DNA of 33,542 nt, taken from positions 1 to 33,542 of the forward strand of contig QHOX01000153.1 in NCBI GenBank assembly GCA_003219465.1. Direction: 5' to 3'. A program made the position numbers and the translations under genes. The notes under the pieces are model-generated. The model was not told the origin of the DNA. It was given only the letters and a program-made list of their open reading frames with translations, and did not search any database. Below, in pieces: positions 1-31,206 of this stretch. The first letter of the stretch is position 1. Each line of letters starts with the position of its first letter. Origin of the DNA: Verrucomicrobiota bacterium (lineage in GTDB: Bacteria; Verrucomicrobiota; Verrucomicrobiia; Chthoniobacterales; UBA10450).

Positions 1-819
<819 letters not shown>

Positions 820-13965: not shown

Positions 13966-15042
13966 GTGGAACCCATACCAGCTAAACCTATCTTCATCGT
14001 GGGATCCCCAAGATCGGGAACCAGCATTCTCACCTGGTGCCTTGGTCAACACCCGAATATTATCCCACTGGACGAGTCCACTGGCCTGGGAAACCTGACA
14101 ATTGCCCTGGCTATTTGTTATCAGACGAAAATGGGACTCGGCGGGAAATCGTTGTGGACTGCACTGAATGTGCAAAAAGGCGAATTTTTTTCCGGCTTCG
14201 GGCAAACCATCAATGAACTCATCTTGCGCCACAACGTTGATCTGGAAAGGCGGCGATGGCAAGAGGCTGCCGGTCCAAGTGTTTCGCCCGAAAGGTTCGT
14301 AACAGAACAGTCGGCAAAGGCGCGATGGGTAGATGGGACACCAGAATACTCGTTTCACATCTATGGTCTTCGTCAGCTATTTCCCGACGCGCGCTTCATT
14401 CATATCGTACGCGACGTTACTTCGGTCGTGCAATCGATGCTTAACTTTCATCGACTTGCCGGTGTGAAGCTGGTCGCGAACGAGCAGGAAGCCTACGATT
14501 ATTGGTACCGCGCCGTTTCTGCCTCCCTCTTAGCTGAACGAGCTTACGGTCCGCGGGTCGTCCTGCGATTGCGATATTCTGAGCTTGTGAATCGAAGCGA
14601 GGCTTCGCTGCGAGCGGTGCTTCATTTCCTCGGCGAACCATACGCTGCTGAATGCCTGATCCCGCTCGGGGAAAGGATCAATAGTTCCAATGTCCCTGCC
14701 GATTTCAGACTTGGCGATCTGGGCACCGCCCCAGAAGTCATCGACCGCGCTATGCGGCTCAGCGCAGAACTCGAAACGTCTCCACAGCCAGGTGAGGGCT
14801 CAATCAGCGCAGCCCAGCAATTAGAGACAGAGTTTAACCAACGTGTGCAATATGTGGCGGCGTTAGATAGCGCTTATGTCAAAGCTCATTCTGAATACGT
14901 CAAGGCTCGTGCTCGGGCAAAAAGACTCGCAAAAGAGGTTGAGAATAAGAGAGCTACAATCCGGGATCTTAGAACTCGACGTCAGCGTCACAAATTGCGG
15001 GGTTTGCTTTTACCACACGGCACTAATGAGGAAACAACATAG
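13966..15042 (+). CDS. sulfotransferase family protein (paralogue 1)
   Basis: This 358-residue protein starts at GTG 13966. The PAPS-binding loop VGSPRSGTS lies at residues 12-20, and the 3'-phosphate motif RDVTSVVQSMLNFHR begins at residue 149. RWVDGTPEYSFHIYGLRQLF between them is the conserved core of this subfamily. ERINSSNVPADF marks the end of the catalytic domain. A charged, probably coiled-coil tail (RARAKRLAKEVENKRATIRD) follows and ends in a basic stretch. It would transfer sulfate from PAPS to a glycan hydroxyl. It is closely similar to the next gene and to the remnant at 16356, so the three arose by tandem duplication. Confidence 0.82.
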   Translation: MEPIPAKPIFIVGSPRSGTSILTWCLGQHPNIIPLDESTGLGNLTIALAICYQTKMGLGGKSLWTALNVQKGEFFSGFGQTINELILRHNVDLERRRWQEAAGPSVSPERFVTEQSAKARWVDGTPEYSFHIYGLRQLFPDARFIHIVRDVTSVVQSMLNFHRLAGVKLVANEQEAYDYWYRAVSASLLAERAYGPRVVLRLRYSELVNRSEASLRAVLHFLGEPYAAECLIPLGERINSSNVPADFRLGDLGTAPEVIDRAMRLSAELETSPQPGEGSISAAQQLETEFNQRVQYVAALDSAYVKAHSEYVKARARAKRLAKEVENKRATIRDLRTRRQRHKLRGLLLPHGTNEETT

Positions 15043-15086
15043 CAAGTGAATGCTCTTGCTCATGCGTGCCAAGAACAAACGCTGCA

Positions 15087-16304
15087 ATGAATGATGAGAT
15101 AAACAAGCCCATTTTTGTAGTTGGATCGCCGCGTTCGGGAACCAGTATTCTGACCTGGTGCCTTGGTTATCACCCCAACATTTTTCCCGTGCCTGAATCA
15201 AATTGGATGGGTGAGTTAGCGGCTAGCCTTGGAATTGCATACCAAGTTGGTGCGGCGCGTGGTGATTATTCTGCCTTGAGCGCGATGGACATTTCGCCAG
15301 ATGAATTTTTCGCGGCTTTTGGCCAGCGTATCAACGAACTGATACTACACCACCGTGACCGCCTAGAAACAAAACGCAAAACCAGGTGTATCGAACTGAA
15401 GCTCGACCGCCGTTGGCTTGAGGCCAGTAGCACAGCGACCGGACCGAAGAGGCGCTGGGTCGATGGGACACCAGAGTATTCCTTTCACATTTATGGTCTG
15501 CGCAAGCTGTTCCCGGAAGCTCTGTTCATTCACCTCGTCCGCGATGTCACCGCCGTGGTGCGCTCGCTGCTAAATTTCCACCGGGTTTCGGGAGTTCATC
15601 TGGTGGCTAGCGAAGAAGATGCTTATCGGTATTGGCTGCGCACAGTTAAGGCCTGCCTTAAAGCTGAGGAAGCCTACGGCCCACGCGTGATTCATCGGTT
15701 GTTATATTCGTCGCTGATCAATAACCCTGAATCGGCAATGCGATCGCTGTTGGATTTTGTCCGCGAGTCTTATGACGCCCGGTGTTTGGAACCGCTCGCA
15801 GAGCGAATTAACAGCTCTAACGTGCCGGCTGAATTTACGTCGGAAGATCCTGCCACCGAAGTAACTTTTGTGGACGAGGCGCGGCGACTCTCGGAGGAGC
15901 TGGAACGAACTGGACAACCCGATGAGCCATCCCCCGCGGTAGCCGACGAGCTTCAGAACGCATTCCACGAATCCTGCCTGAGAGCGATGAGCATCGAGGA
16001 GCAGTTAACGAAGGTGCGGCGCAAAAAGAGCAGAGATATACAAAAACTTGCCGCTATGCTCGATGAAGTTGCCGCTAATAACGCCAGGCTGCAGTCCTCG
16101 CGCTTGTGGCGATTCGTGAACAGGGCCGCTGCAATCGAAGCGAAATTGTTTCCGAACAAAGGATTCGTTCCGGATCGGCGGCTTCAGAAAATCATTGGCA
16201 ATTACTCGCGGTGGCGCGCTTCGCATCCGGACATCGCAAATCTCGATAAACCAATTCATCGCGCCGAATCGCCAGCCTCTGGGGACGACTCCGACACGGC
16301 TTAA
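15087..16304 (+). CDS. sulfotransferase family protein (paralogue 2) with fusion-type C-terminal module
   Basis: About 405 residues from ATG 15087; GTG 15066 is an alternative. It has the same core as paralogue 1: VGSPRSGTS at 12-20, RWVDGTPEYSFHIYGLRKLF, LVRDVTAVVRSLLNFHR, and ERINSSNVPAEF. After a coiled coil, residues 332-391 (SSRLWRFVN, AAIEAKLF, NYSRWRASHPDIANLD) match the linker of the 1109-residue fusion (SSARWQIAN, AALKAKLS, YKRWRASHPEVAAID). The protein thus looks like a sulfotransferase plus linker without the glycosyltransferase half. It may dock with glycosyltransferases, which is inference. No signal peptide is present; it is probably cytoplasmic or membrane-associated. Confidence 0.82.
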   Translation: MNDEINKPIFVVGSPRSGTSILTWCLGYHPNIFPVPESNWMGELAASLGIAYQVGAARGDYSALSAMDISPDEFFAAFGQRINELILHHRDRLETKRKTRCIELKLDRRWLEASSTATGPKRRWVDGTPEYSFHIYGLRKLFPEALFIHLVRDVTAVVRSLLNFHRVSGVHLVASEEDAYRYWLRTVKACLKAEEAYGPRVIHRLLYSSLINNPESAMRSLLDFVRESYDARCLEPLAERINSSNVPAEFTSEDPATEVTFVDEARRLSEELERTGQPDEPSPAVADELQNAFHESCLRAMSIEEQLTKVRRKKSRDIQKLAAMLDEVAANNARLQSSRLWRFVNRAAAIEAKLFPNKGFVPDRRLQKIIGNYSRWRASHPDIANLDKPIHRAESPASGDDSDTA

Positions 16305-16355: not shown

Positions 16356-16844
16356 ATGCTGAACCCGCAAACACTAAAGCCATTAAGAAAGTGGCCGAAC
16401 GGTGGGGCGATCCGCAAAGCGAGCCTCCTGGCACGCAGTGGGTCGGAGTGCCAGGCGTTGCGGCGACATTCGGAACTCGTTGATGCACCGGAAGCCGCGC
16501 TACGATCGGTTTTTGGGTTCCTCGGCGAGTCTTACGCGCCCGAGTGTTTGGAGCCGCTGAAGCAACGGATTAATAGCTCGAATGTTGCCGATGATTTTGT
16601 CGCCAGCGATCCGGCCAGCGACTCCGCGCTGGTCGAGAAAGCAACGAACCTTTCGGCTGAATTAGAAACAACAGCCCAGTCGAGCGAACGATCAAATGCT
16701 GCCGCGGACGCGCTCGAAGCCCAGTTTCGGGAACGGACGCAATACGTAGCTGTCTTGGACAAGAGCCACGAAGAAGCTCAACGACTTATTCGGGCTCTCA
16801 AGAAGCAAAACCGCGACATGACTGAGGCGTTCGATCGCGCTTAA
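16356..16844 (+). pseudogene. truncated third sulfotransferase paralogue (C-terminal remnant)
   Basis: The open frame encodes 162 residues that align only with the last part of the two neighbouring sulfotransferases. Shared segments are HSELVDAPEAALRSVFGFLG, ESYAPECLEPLKQRINSSNV, and the coiled-coil tail RERTQYVAVLDKSHEEAQRL. The PAPS loop, the W-V-D-G-T-P-E-Y core and the 3'-phosphate motif are missing. The first 25 or so residues have no family character. It cannot be an active sulfotransferase as it stands. It may be translated as a small coiled-coil protein, but decay after tandem duplication is the simpler reading. Confidence 0.7.
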
Positions 16845-16869: not shown

Positions 16870-18013
16870 GTGTGCTCTGAGTTAACCAAATTGCCAACGA
16901 AGACGGCTCCGCGCCGGATTGAACTTCGTAAGATCAGAATCAACGTAGCGAACCTTTCTCGCGTCTTAGCGGGTTGGAAGGTACTGCTAACCACGTGTCT
17001 GTTTCTCGTCGGGGTCATAGGATATGCCGATTATCAGACTGGATACGACCGCCCGCTGCTTCTCTTTTACCTTTTACCCATTTCTTTAGCCGCCTGGTTT
17101 GGCAGCTTCCTTGGAGGCCTAGGAATCGCTGTTGTGAGCATTGCAGTATCGATGCTGTCAGATGTTGCGGCCGGGAGTCCTGCTCCCGGCTTCTGGAATT
17201 CGGGAATGGCCTTTGTATCCTATGCGCTGTTCGCTGGAGTGTTATCCAAGCTGCGGACACTGGTGGGGGAATTGGATCGGCGGGTTGAGGAACGGACGGC
17301 AGCTTTGCAGCGCGAGGTGGCTGAACGCCAGCGGCTCGATCGGGAAATCGCACAAGTGGCAGATCGTGAACGACGTCGCTTGGGACAGGATCTTCACGAC
17401 AGGCTCGGCCAGCACCTCACCGGCACCGCTTTGGCAGCTCAAGTGTTGAAGGACAAACTCGCCACAAAATCGGGACAAACTCGCCACAAAATCGGTGCCG
17501 GAGGCAAGCGAGGCAGAGAAGCTCGTGCGGTACGTCGAGGAAGGCATCGATCTTACCCGTAATTTGGCACGCGGTTTCTTTTCGCCAGAACTCGAAGCAG
17601 AAGGGTTAAGCGTAGCCTTGGAAGGTCTTGCCGAGAACATTAGCGAGCGATTCGCAATTAACTGTATTTTTCACGGAGAAGAGTCAATTCCAGTGCGCGA
17701 TTCTGCGGTTGCTACGCAACTCTACCGGATTGCTCAGGAGGCGGCCACGAACGCCGCCAAGCACGCTGCCGCGGAGAATATCGATATTCGCGTTACTGTG
17801 AATGGTTCCGAACTTGTTCTCGCAATCAGTGATAATGGAGTTGGGATCCCAGACAAGCTCTCAGATTCAAAAGGGCTTGGGCTTCGCTTGATGCGCCATG
17901 GCGCGGCACTAATTGGCGCAACGTTGAGCGTTCAACGAAATCGCGGGCGCGGAACGGTTGCGACATGTAAGTTAAGGATTCCAAATCACAGCGAATCAAG
18001 TATCGCAATATGA
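16870..18013 (+). pseudogene. NarL-type sensor histidine kinase, frame broken by a 22-bp tandem duplication
   Basis: The first frame (16870-17562, GTG start) gives three or four membrane helices at about residues 40-125. A coiled coil EERTAALQREVAERQRLDRE follows, then the HisKA_3 box ERRRLGQDLHDRLGQHLTG with phospho-acceptor His176. It leaves frame after LKDKLATKS. The second frame (17495-18013) encodes the rest: PEASEAEKLVRYVEEGIDL, LYRIAQEAATNAAKHA (N box), ISDNGVGIP and GLGLRLMRHGA (G boxes). Removing one copy of the duplicated 22 bp (17452-17473 or 17474-17495) joins the halves in frame. GTG 17495 could start a soluble 172-residue ATPase fragment. The stop overlaps the regulator start by 4 nt, so this was an intact two-component operon. 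Confidence 0.85.
17452..17495 (+). repeat. exact 22-bp tandem duplication inside the kinase gene
   Basis: Two adjacent identical copies lie at 17452-17473 and 17474-17495, each running from GACAAACTCG to ACAAAATCGG. Twenty-two is not a multiple of three, so the second copy shifts the frame by one. Confidence 0.95.
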
Positions 18014-18699
18014 ATATGAACTCGGACCCTCCCATCAATGGCATGCGCAAACGCCGGATTTTTATCGTTGACGATCACCCGCTTGTCCGCGAAGGACTCA
18101 CCAATCTTATCAATGGGCAAAGCGATCTGATAGTCTGCGGTGAGGCGGAAGATTCGGCCGGCGCTATCGCTGGTATTGCAAAAGCTCGGCCGGATGTCGC
18201 GCTTATCGATATCTCCCTCAAAAACGAATCGGGATTGGAACTAGTCAAAATTCTGGACAATCAATTCCCGCTGGTTGCACTAATCGTTCTCTCGATGCAC
18301 GACGAAGCGTTGTATGCCGAGCGCGCTCTGCGCGCTGGCGCGCGGGGTTACGTCATGAAACGTGAGACCTCCAGGAGCGTCCTGGCTTGCATTCGCCGTG
18401 TGCTTGAGGGCGGAGTTTACTTAAGCGAGAGGGTCGTCAACAGCATGGCGCGCCGACTCAGCACCTCGCGCAAGACCGCGGAGGCTTCTCCTGTGGAACG
18501 GTTAAGCGATCGCGAATTGGAAATATTTCGCCTCCTAGGCCAGGGGCGGACTACTTCCGAGATCGCGGAGGACTTGCACCTCAGTCTAAAAACTGTGCAA
18601 GCCTACTGTGCGCGCGCAAAAGAGAAATTCGGCGTCAGCTCCCTGGGCGAGCTGCTCCGCGCAGCCATTCGTTGGGACGATGCTACGAATGTAAAATGA
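18010..18699 (+). CDS. NarL/FixJ family response regulator
   Basis: This 229-residue protein has a receiver domain with the acidic pair in IFIVDDHPLVREGL, phospho-acceptor Asp67 in ALIDISLKNESG, and the Lys in GYVMKRETS. The C-terminal LuxR-type helix-turn-helix begins LSDRELEIFRLLGQGRTTSE and continues IAEDLHLSLKTVQAY. Phosphorylation by the cognate kinase would control DNA binding. The start overlaps the kinase stop (ATGA). The pair is embedded in the glycan locus, so control of that locus is a reasonable guess, but no binding site was identified. With the kinase broken, it may run unphosphorylated or be served by other donors. Confidence 0.92.
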   Translation: MNMNSDPPINGMRKRRIFIVDDHPLVREGLTNLINGQSDLIVCGEAEDSAGAIAGIAKARPDVALIDISLKNESGLELVKILDNQFPLVALIVLSMHDEALYAERALRAGARGYVMKRETSRSVLACIRRVLEGGVYLSERVVNSMARRLSTSRKTAEASPVERLSDRELEIFRLLGQGRTTSEIAEDLHLSLKTVQAYCARAKEKFGVSSLGELLRAAIRWDDATNVK

Positions 18700-18741: not shown

Positions 18742-19977
18742 TTGGCACTACAAGAACATTCGGCTACATCCATCTGTCCCTGGCCCTTCGCTGCACCAGA
18801 TTATGGCGTGACACCAAAGCAGCTTCTCGCCGCCGGGGATAGCAGCACCTCAGGAACAACGCTGTCGGAAGCATTGCGCCAACTTTCTAATTGGTTTCCG
18901 CGCGCGGTCGGTAATCGCATAGAACGTGGCCCTGCCGCCTTTCAAGAACCAAAGCGCGAGCAAAAGACTTCTGAACACACTAAGTATCCCCTTCGACAGC
19001 TCGCCACAACAACCGAGCGGAATTTTTGGGAACTCAAATTGGCCGAACAGCCCAAGTCCTTCTGGTATCCCTACTCGACGTTGCACAATGTCGCAGTCTT
19101 GGAAGAGCTCTGCTCTAAGGCGCATGTCGATCTTTTGGAGCTCTGCCGAGGCACACACGGAAAAGTGGCAGACATTGGAGCCGCTGATGGAGACCTCGCG
19201 TTTTTCCTGGAGAAACTCGGCCTGTCGGTGGTGGCGATCGATAATGAATACACAAACTTCAACCGTTTGGAGGGCGCACGAACTCTCAAGAAGGCCCTAA
19301 ACTCGTCCGTACCCATTCAATCAGTCGATTTGGATTCCCAATTCACACTCGCTGCGCAAAAATACGATGTAATTTTTTTCCTGGGAACCCTTTATCATTT
19401 AAAGAACCCCTTCTTTCTTTTGGAAAGCTTGGCGCGAATCACGAAATATTGCTTTTTGAGCACGCGCATTGCCAGGCAGACTGCGGACGGTTCGCCTCTG
19501 GCGTCGCACCCTGTAGCGTATCTGCTCGAACCACGAGAATGCAACAATGACGACACGAACTTCTGGATCTTCTCAGATCAGGGTCTAAAGAGATTAATCG
19601 ATCGAACGGGATGGGATCTTCGCTCGTATCTTACGATTGGTGATACAACGGGATCTACTCCGGCTGATCCTGAAAGAGACGAGCGTGCGTTTTGCCTTCT
19701 GAAAAAACGGCCACCTTCGTTCACCGCCAACCCGAATCCCGTGCCGGCTGGCGAAGGGCCTGGCAAAACTACAGTTTCCTGGGACACCGTCGATGGGAGC
19801 ATCGGAAGGATCTATGTCTCTGTGAACCGCGGCCAGGAACTGCTTTTTGCAGACGGCCGCCGCAGCTCTGCTTCGGCGCATTGGATCGAGACAGGTTCCA
19901 AGTATGAGTTTCGCCTCTACAACTGGGATCACACAGAATTGCTGGCGAATGTGACCGTTACAAGAAAAACGCAGTAA
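18742..19977 (+). CDS. class I SAM methyltransferase with C-terminal beta-rich accessory domain
   Basis: Up to 411 residues. The methyltransferase lies at about residues 95-325. It has SFWYPYSTLHNVAVLEEL, the SAM motif ADIGAADGDLAFFLEKLG, the acidic strand VVAIDNEYTNF, and DVIFFLGTLYHLKNPF. That arrangement recalls DUF1698/CmoB-type methyltransferases. Residues 327-411 are the accessory domain (PNPVPAG, TTVSWDT, RIYVSVN, ELLFADG, HWIETGSKYEFRLY) shared with the proteins at 12656 and 20094. There is no ATG before the domain; TTG 18742 is taken as start and GTG 18808 is an alternative. The likely role is methylation of a glycan or lipid-linked sugar; the substrate is not known. It lies 42 nt after the response regulator. 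Confidence 0.78.
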   Translation: MALQEHSATSICPWPFAAPDYGVTPKQLLAAGDSSTSGTTLSEALRQLSNWFPRAVGNRIERGPAAFQEPKREQKTSEHTKYPLRQLATTTERNFWELKLAEQPKSFWYPYSTLHNVAVLEELCSKAHVDLLELCRGTHGKVADIGAADGDLAFFLEKLGLSVVAIDNEYTNFNRLEGARTLKKALNSSVPIQSVDLDSQFTLAAQKYDVIFFLGTLYHLKNPFFLLESLARITKYCFLSTRIARQTADGSPLASHPVAYLLEPRECNNDDTNFWIFSDQGLKRLIDRTGWDLRSYLTIGDTTGSTPADPERDERAFCLLKKRPPSFTANPNPVPAGEGPGKTTVSWDTVDGSIGRIYVSVNRGQELLFADGRRSSASAHWIETGSKYEFRLYNWDHTELLANVTVTRKTQ

Positions 19978-29896: not shown

Positions 29897-29984
29897 GGTG
29901 AGGTGGCTGAGTGGTTGAAAGCAGCGCTTTGCTAAAGCGCCGTAGCCCAAAAGGCTACCGAGGGTTCGAATCCCTCCCTCACCG
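29897..29984 (+). tRNA. tRNA-Ser (anticodon GCU)
   Basis: The acceptor stem GGTGAGG/CCTCACC (29897-29903 and 29977-29983) encloses a D arm GGCTGAGTGGTTGAAAGC. The anticodon stem-loop has GCT at 29931-29933. A long variable arm GTAGCC...GGCTAC typical of class II tRNAs follows, then the T arm GGGTTCGAATCCC. G29984 is the discriminator base. CCA is not encoded. Confidence 0.97.
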
Positions 29985-30171
29985 CGCTCCATCGTTCCCG
30001 TGGACATCGAGCCATTCGCAAGGCCAAACAATTGTGACAGGCGGTTGTGTTGCAGACGCGGCACTGCAGGCAAGCGCAATCGCAGCTGTGAACGTCGCCC
30101 GGATCATCGCGACCGCTCATATCATTTTGTCGTTGCGATGTGGAGAGCAAACAAGACAGAATCCCGCGCAT

Positions 30172-31206
30172 ATGAAAACGAAAACTTCACTCACAAGAAA
30201 TTCGATGAACCGCTCGCCTTTGCGCATGTTCCTTCTAATTCCATTCGCCCTCGCCTGCTTTACGCTTTCGCCTCAAGCGCGAGCGGATTGTCAAGAAGGC
30301 TGCGACACCAACAACAATACATTCCTGGGCGATGATGCCCTCATTAGTAATACAACCGGTGTTGACAGCACGGCAATTGGTTTTGATGCGCTCTTCAGCA
30401 ACACGACCGGCAGCGCCAACACGGCCACGGGTTTTGAAGCGCTCGAAAACAACACAACCGGCAATGATAATACGGCCGACGGTGGTAATGCGCTCTTTAG
30501 CAATACCACTGGCGGGAGCAACACGGCCAGCGGTGTTGGTGCGCTCAATTTCAACACGACCGGCTTCTTCAACACGGCCATCGGTGATGGTGCGCTCTTC
30601 AACAACACAACGGGCAGCGGCAACATTGCATTGGGCCTTTCAGCCGGCGTAAATCTCACTACGGGCAATAACAATATCGATATTGGCAACGAAGGAGTGG
30701 CTGGCGAGGCCAAACACATTCGTGTTGGCACAAAAGGAACTCACACGCATACGTTTATCGCCGGGATCAGTGGGGCAACCGTTGCTGGAGGCGTAGGGGT
30801 AATCATCGACACCAACGGTCATCTTGGCACGGTCGTTTCCTCTGAGCGGTTCAAAGACGAGGTCAAGCCGATGGATAAGGCCAGTGAAGTTATCCGCGCG
30901 CTCCGACCGGTCACGTTCCGTTACAAACACGAGCTTGATCCTGCTGGCATCCCGCAATTCGGGCTCGTCGCCGAGGATGTTGAAAAGGTAAATCCCGACC
31001 TGGTCGCTCGCGACGATCAAGGCAAACCCTACAGCGTGCGCTATGAAGCGGTAAACGCGATGTTGCTCAACGAGTTTCTCAAAGAGCACCGCAAAGTCGA
31101 GCAGTTGGAGAAACAAGTCGAAGCGTTGACTGCGGGCCTACAGAAAGTGAGCGCACAACTTGAAGTGAACAAACCCGCGTCGCAAACGGTCTTGAACAAC
31201 CACTAG
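30172..31206 (+). CDS. repeat adhesin-like protein with C-terminal S74 chaperone domain
   Basis: About 344 residues from ATG 30172. The frame is open back into tRNA-Ser, but that part is not coding. A signal peptide (MFLLIPFALACFTLSPQARA) precedes the mature part. Seven 17-residue repeats of the form L-x-x-N-T-T-G-x-x-N-T-A-x-G-x-x-A resemble the stacked beta repeats of trimeric YadA-like adhesins. The C-terminal domain has SSERFKDEVKPMDKASEVIR, LRPVTFRYK, and FGLVAEDVEKVNPDLVARD, the Peptidase_S74 intramolecular chaperone known from phage tail spikes, which cleaves itself off after trimerisation. A closing coiled coil (EHRKVEQLEKQVEALTAGLQ) supports a trimer. It is probably a secreted or surface trimer. 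There are no phage genes around it. Confidence 0.8.
   Translation: MKTKTSLTRNSMNRSPLRMFLLIPFALACFTLSPQARADCQEGCDTNNNTFLGDDALISNTTGVDSTAIGFDALFSNTTGSANTATGFEALENNTTGNDNTADGGNALFSNTTGGSNTASGVGALNFNTTGFFNTAIGDGALFNNTTGSGNIALGLSAGVNLTTGNNNIDIGNEGVAGEAKHIRVGTKGTHTHTFIAGISGATVAGGVGVIIDTNGHLGTVVSSERFKDEVKPMDKASEVIRALRPVTFRYKHELDPAGIPQFGLVAEDVEKVNPDLVARDDQGKPYSVRYEAVNAMLLNEFLKEHRKVEQLEKQVEALTAGLQKVSAQLEVNKPASQTVLNNH
30340..30696 (+). repeat. seven tandem 51-bp coding repeats
   Basis: Units start at 30340, 30391, 30442, 30493, 30544, 30595 and 30646. Each encodes 17 residues with a conserved N-T-T-G (L-T-T-G in the last). Copy number can change without breaking the frame. Confidence 0.9.

Follow-up and report, generated by a model that had tools for sequence, protein, structure and literature searches.

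The locus studied here raises the question of whether a histidine kinase gene that is divided between two reading frames at an exact 22-bp tandem duplication is being switched on and off by that duplication, has recently been knocked out by it, or was broken only in the assembly. A preliminary description of the sequence had left these three readings side by side. The gene lies in the window, by which we mean the whole 33,542-nucleotide stretch that was analysed (contig C316; GenBank QHOX01000153.1), from a Verrucomicrobiota genome of 4.19 Mb in 413 contigs whose completeness is 88.8% and contamination 5.5%. The closest relatives with a name are Verrucomicrobia from soil that have not been cultured ('AV' isolates and others labelled Spartobacteria or Chthoniobacterales).

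The duplication was characterised by TRF, which reported a period of 22, 2.0 copies, 100% match and a score of 90 at positions 17451–17495 (plus strand). Self-comparison of the sequence at a lag of 22 gave an uninterrupted match of 23 bases from 17451 on, corresponding to two perfect copies plus one base. Two phasings are possible, 17451–17472/17473–17494 and 17452–17473/17474–17495, the latter being that of the preliminary description. This run of 23 was the longest self-match at lags 10–60 in the whole window, while in 100 windows simulated with a first-order Markov model the longest run averaged 10.5 and reached at most 13, which places the repeat far beyond chance. The 22-mer is itself composed of two imperfect 11-mers, identical at 8 of 11 positions. 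The copies are perfect and adjacent, they lie inside an open reading frame and their length is not a multiple of 3, as in a frameshifting duplication; division of 22 by 3 leaves 1, the same offset as that between the frames of the N-terminal and C-terminal kinase pieces.

The N-terminal fragment (16870–17562, plus strand) starts with GTG and encodes 230 residues comprising a membrane segment, His176 and the first helix of the dimerisation domain, with a HisKA_3 (PF07730) score of 36.6 bits against a cut-off of 24. It consists of about 201 native residues followed by 29 out-of-frame residues and ends with the TAA at 17560–17562. The C-terminal fragment (17495–18013, plus strand; GTG start, 172 residues) carries the second dimerisation helix and the ATP-binding domain, and its HATPase_c domain (PF02518) scored 57.4 bits on the translation from 17450. 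HisKA_3 and HATPase_c, found in one protein in DesK-type kinases, are hence in different frames in the window. Together, these results agree with the preliminary description as to the exact duplication, the two kinase halves that meet there in different frames and the position of His176. An intact response regulator gene (18010–18699, plus strand), of the NarL/LuxR type and with receiver and LuxR/GerE helix-turn-helix domains (Response_reg 84.2 bits, GerE 52.8 bits), directly follows, its start overlapping the kinase stop codon (ATGA). The adjacency of the two genes suggests that kinase and regulator are partners. With HisKA_3, HATPase_c and a GerE regulator the pair resembles DesK-type (HisKA_3) kinases with NarL/LuxR-type regulators, from which the window copy differs in being split.

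Glycosyltransferase, methyltransferase, sulfotransferase, GSCFA and DegT-type aminotransferase genes surround the kinase, and because of these neighbours the label "glycan locus" given to the region earlier is a fair one. Upstream lie two sulfotransferase genes, at 13966–15042 and 15066–16304 (both plus strand; Sulfotransfer_3, 108 and 100 bits), and downstream of the pair a methyltransferase gene at 18742–19977 (plus strand; Methyltransf_23, 36.8 bits). The methyltransferase has near-full-length matches in L022 (82%), L023 (66%), L024 (63%) and L026 (63%), and the order sulfotransferase, kinase, regulator, methyltransferase is common to L022, L024, L025, L026 and L033. Directly 5' of the kinase, a truncated reading frame at 16356–16844 (plus strand), without any Pfam match, corresponds to residues 197–321 of the L024 sulfotransferase (62%); it is the C-terminal end of such an enzyme, the N-terminal part of which is missing.

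The site was compared among 14 named relatives that align across it (L022–L035); L036 starts beyond the site, and the more distant L037–L101 lay outside the repeat comparison. Thirteen of the 14 have one copy of the unit and an open kinase frame, in which tblastn and translation (not Pfam) place the HisKA_3 and HATPase_c regions together. The fourteenth, L029, also has one copy, but its frame is split by a separate 8-bp deletion. No relative among the 14 has two copies, so the comparison that had been proposed earlier confirms that the single-copy form is the intact kinase. The statement that all other family motifs are intact has to be amended at one conserved position: the codon directly 3' of the second copy is GTG, encoding Val, while all 13 aligned intact relatives have Ala (A212) at this invariant position. 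This change may have arisen with the duplication or by chance; the same GTG is also a possible start codon for the C-terminal piece.

The pair was then followed through the 35 genomes of the genus, the window's genome (G000) included. At E ≤ 1e-40 the C-terminal piece gave 16 matches in 14 genomes, and an open frame of at least 337 residues was present in 14 of these 16 copies (one of them, G031:C343, with a run of N upstream), the exceptions being the window and G031:C498. The regulator was detected at E ≤ 1e-60 in 13 genomes, which are the kinase-bearing ones minus G031, and the N-terminal piece at E ≤ 1e-30 in 15, the fifteenth being G029. Kinase and regulator are inherited together and patchy in the genus, the patchiness being partly due to the incompleteness of the genomes (59–96% complete). 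Three further candidate breaks were dropped: in L102, the second kinase of G031, a run of N (scaffold gap) lies between the two frames; the G029 kinase (L118) is cut by the contig end; and a TGA in G027 was taken as upstream of the start of a 351-residue open frame.

The other split kinase is L029 of AV59, also numbered L009 in G031; compared with its closest relative, L025, it is shorter by a deletion of 8 bp. A short direct repeat marks the place of this deletion, which is in the linker that also contains the window's duplication, about 20 bp or less past the latter, and has the same net effect on the frame. In the AV59 regulator (L029:2550–3080), 265 bp are missing compared with L025 and the rest is out of frame; a short sequence shared by the deletion ends was seen by eye. 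Both genes of the pair look dead in AV59, judging from these sequences. In trees of the N-terminal and of the C-terminal piece, L029 pairs with the intact L025, while the window groups elsewhere (with L024 in the former and L022 in the latter), indicating that the two breaks are independent. Hence the split is not a feature conserved across lineages, 14 of the 16 genus copies being in a single frame at the site. We read the AV59 breaks as pointing to dispensability of the pair in some lineages; the contig of AV59 is heavily broken, however, and the breaks could also be assembly errors. Between L029 and L025, dN/dS was 0.277 for the kinase C-terminal piece, 0.269 for the regulator remnant and 0.122 for the N-terminal piece, values that cannot tell decay from constraint because the methyltransferase, which has no break, gave 0.261.

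Several observations bear on the age of the window's duplication. The copies are identical at 22 of 22 positions, neither kinase piece contains an internal stop, and dN/dS is ordinary. For the C-terminal piece it ranged from 0.113 to 0.163 between the window and seven intact relatives (L022–L028), compared with 0.068–0.189 among those relatives (21 pairs); for the N-terminal piece the ranges were 0.116–0.266 (6 of 7 pairs computable) and 0.051–0.329 (19 of 21 pairs). These values are rough, dS being near or above 1 in many pairs, and those of the C-terminal piece suggest that there has been little time for decay. All three lines support the earlier proposal that the event is recent.

The duplication has very probably switched the kinase gene off, and these data are best explained by a mutation that arose spontaneously and inactivated one member of a dispensable two-component pair in the glycan locus, a reading that we regard as likely. 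Replication slippage or template switching would have produced the tandem copy, which shifts the frame of the kinase of this accessory pair. Translation would then end at 17562, giving a membrane piece that has His176 and the first dimerisation helix but to which no ATPase is covalently joined; kinase function would be lost and the regulator left without its partner. Such a loss would be tolerated if the pair is dispensable, as suggested by its patchiness in the genus and by its being broken by another route in AV59. It is probably an ordinary frameshift with loss of function, a further example of a mutation type already known. In Streptococcus pyogenes, the mutations that inactivate covS include an 11-bp insertion duplicating the sequence next to it, insertions of 31 nt resembling the sequence around them, and deletions; the authors of that study suggested slipped-strand mispairing (PMC4072638). 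As here, a sensor kinase gene is inactivated by an adjacent-repeat insertion; the covS alleles are many and came from infected mice, whereas a single allele of a soil bacterium is at issue here. By analogy with the covS duplications and with those of pneumococcal capsule genes, the window's mutation would in principle be revertible, and rare back-mutation is possible as for any short perfect tandem duplication. Under the loss-of-function reading, the window shows a regulatory gene shortly after it was lost in a soil lineage that has not been cultured, and the findings suggest two or more breaks of this accessory two-component pair within a single genus.

A selected, reversible switch, in which cells change between a two-copy (off) and a one-copy (on) state and so adjust the glycan locus, would fit with the location of the gene and with the breakage of the pair in two lineages. 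It also has a precedent in the pneumococcus, in which spontaneous duplications inactivate capsule genes (type 3 locus, cap8E and tts; Waite et al. 2001, 2003) and, in papers that cite that work, are described as reversible (PMC4022640, PMC4243769). These too are short tandem duplications within a reading frame of a polysaccharide locus whose one-copy form is intact and whose function is lost on duplication, but they affect capsule genes and show reversible phase variation, whereas the present case is a sensor kinase seen in one assembly with no reversion observed. One of these sources gives reversion at about 1e-5 or less for insertions of up to 9 bp, which are shorter than the present 22 bp (PMC4022640). 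At a phase-variable locus the tract would be conserved or variable among relatives; none of the 14 aligned relatives has a tract, and two copies are the minimum of any duplication. The second broken copy is a deletion, accompanied by deletion in its regulator, and would not revert. These observations fit gene loss better than contingency, so the on/off switch that had been envisaged was not borne out; selection maintaining the duplication as a switch is unsupported, and we consider this explanation quite improbable. If reads showed both states coexisting, this would be evidence for duplication-based phase variation in soil Verrucomicrobia. Among the papers that full-text searches on phase-variable histidine kinases and on tandem-duplicated sensor kinases brought up, none concerned Verrucomicrobia by its title. 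An artefact of assembly or consensus, in which a single copy in the cells became two because an assembler or gap-filler left overlapping ends unmerged on joining them, is likewise unlikely, if slightly less so. The fragmentation, incompleteness and contamination of the genome speak for it, as does the state of the AV59 contig. It is disfavoured because the sampled sequence of this genome contains few such duplications and because nine neighbouring genes match relatives' reading frames in single frames over the matched parts (the tenth, at 16356–16844, being truncated). Specifically, 264,072 bases of the genome's own sequence (the window and 20 further stretches totalling about 230 kb, with 4,600 N) contained two perfect tandems of period 10–300, of which the kinase repeat is the only one of period at least 10 in the window; 129,497 bases from the loci of 15 relatives also contained two, both of 11 bp. 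The other tandem of the genome, a 17-bp unit (L123:241–274), lies on another contig, by eye outside genes, in the leader just before a minus-strand reading frame, and includes a stretch that by eye resembles a Shine-Dalgarno sequence. Moreover, k-mers across the copy junction should not be derivable from single-copy reads. Many of the relatives seem, from the style of their record names, to come from grassland soil assemblies, which were made with IDBA-UD at k values of 30 or higher (PMC6784897); the window's assembly method may differ.

The position of the break bears on another possibility, namely that both pieces are translated and reassemble into a functional split kinase whose break lies between the two dimerisation helices. 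In an AlphaFold2 model of the intact L023 kinase, of moderate quality (mean pLDDT 71.6, about 65 around the loop; pTM 0.40), residues 118–209 form a helix, 210–213 a loop and 214–238 a second helix. The best PDB match of L023 was DesK (3gig, E 3.4e-10), the sensor region falling outside the match. The duplication ends at the predicted alpha1–alpha2 loop, so the His helix would be on one piece and the second helix with the ATPase on the other. This would suit a two-piece kinase, as would the GTG at 17495 in place of the Ala codon of the intact relatives and the AV59 break, which falls in this loop too and leaves an identical net frame. That a single hairpin loop has been hit twice, each time with this outcome, is mildly above chance expectation and, against the loss-of-function reading, could hint at a special site. 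In a gene of about 1.1 kb, the probability of two breaks only a few tens of bp apart is roughly estimated at several percent, and at half that if the frame must also agree, which is not convincing after the fact. The candidate in-frame starts of the C-terminal piece are GTG 17495, GTG 17525 and TTG 17564; by eye, no strong Shine-Dalgarno sequence precedes any of them, and a purine-rich stretch precedes GTG 17525. Split kinases are known: CheA3/CheA4 and Hik36–Hik43 have phospho-acceptor and ATPase in separate reading frames, as here, but in these the division falls between domains and the parts function or associate with each other, whereas the window's kinase has a recent mutation inside the dimerisation hairpin (PMC7656254, PMC3591291). 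In AV59, where the regulator is destroyed, a split kinase would have no adjacent partner. A functional split kinase is thus, in our estimation, very unlikely. Still more speculative is the idea that the loop is a permissive break point, that both lineages converged on a two-piece kinase and that the repeat toggles between fused and split proteins, possibly giving a phosphatase-biased or bistable form; the membrane piece would then carry the His and what we take to be a phosphatase-type motif beside it, and the second piece helix 2 and the ATPase. Ribosomal or transcriptional frameshifting could also be imagined to restore a full-length kinase despite the second copy, since each copy contains four consecutive A. 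Such a run is short, however, and the reading frame would have to move by +1 or −2; inspection by eye showed no known +1 signal, and the open relatives need no recoding. Programmed frameshifting was consequently rejected as having almost no chance of being correct.

The different tree partners noted above show that the two halves of the window's kinase have different nearest relatives. Windowed identities placed no recombination point at the window's duplication; the clear sensor swap is in L022. In the AV36 kinase (L022:5242–6540), the N-terminal half is 57–78% identical to the window at the DNA level in 8 of 9 blocks with data and 93% identical in the short last block, and it groups with L033 in the N-half tree, while the C-terminal half is 85–95% identical in 7 of 9 blocks. 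From this sequence comparison the L022 kinase looks like a sensor-module swap with its break near the His helix or the loop.

Some further features of the contigs were recorded. The 5' part of a 23S rRNA gene occupies the end of the window (1–819, minus strand). In L023, L025, L026, L028, L029 and L033, 23S-matching sequence is found downstream of the pair, where the contig ends, which means that the gene order around the rRNA operon differs in these six relatives from that of the window. Finally, 51-bp (102-bp) repeats about 70% alike were found at 30369–30625, within the gene of a protein with a Peptidase_S74 chaperone domain (29911–31206).
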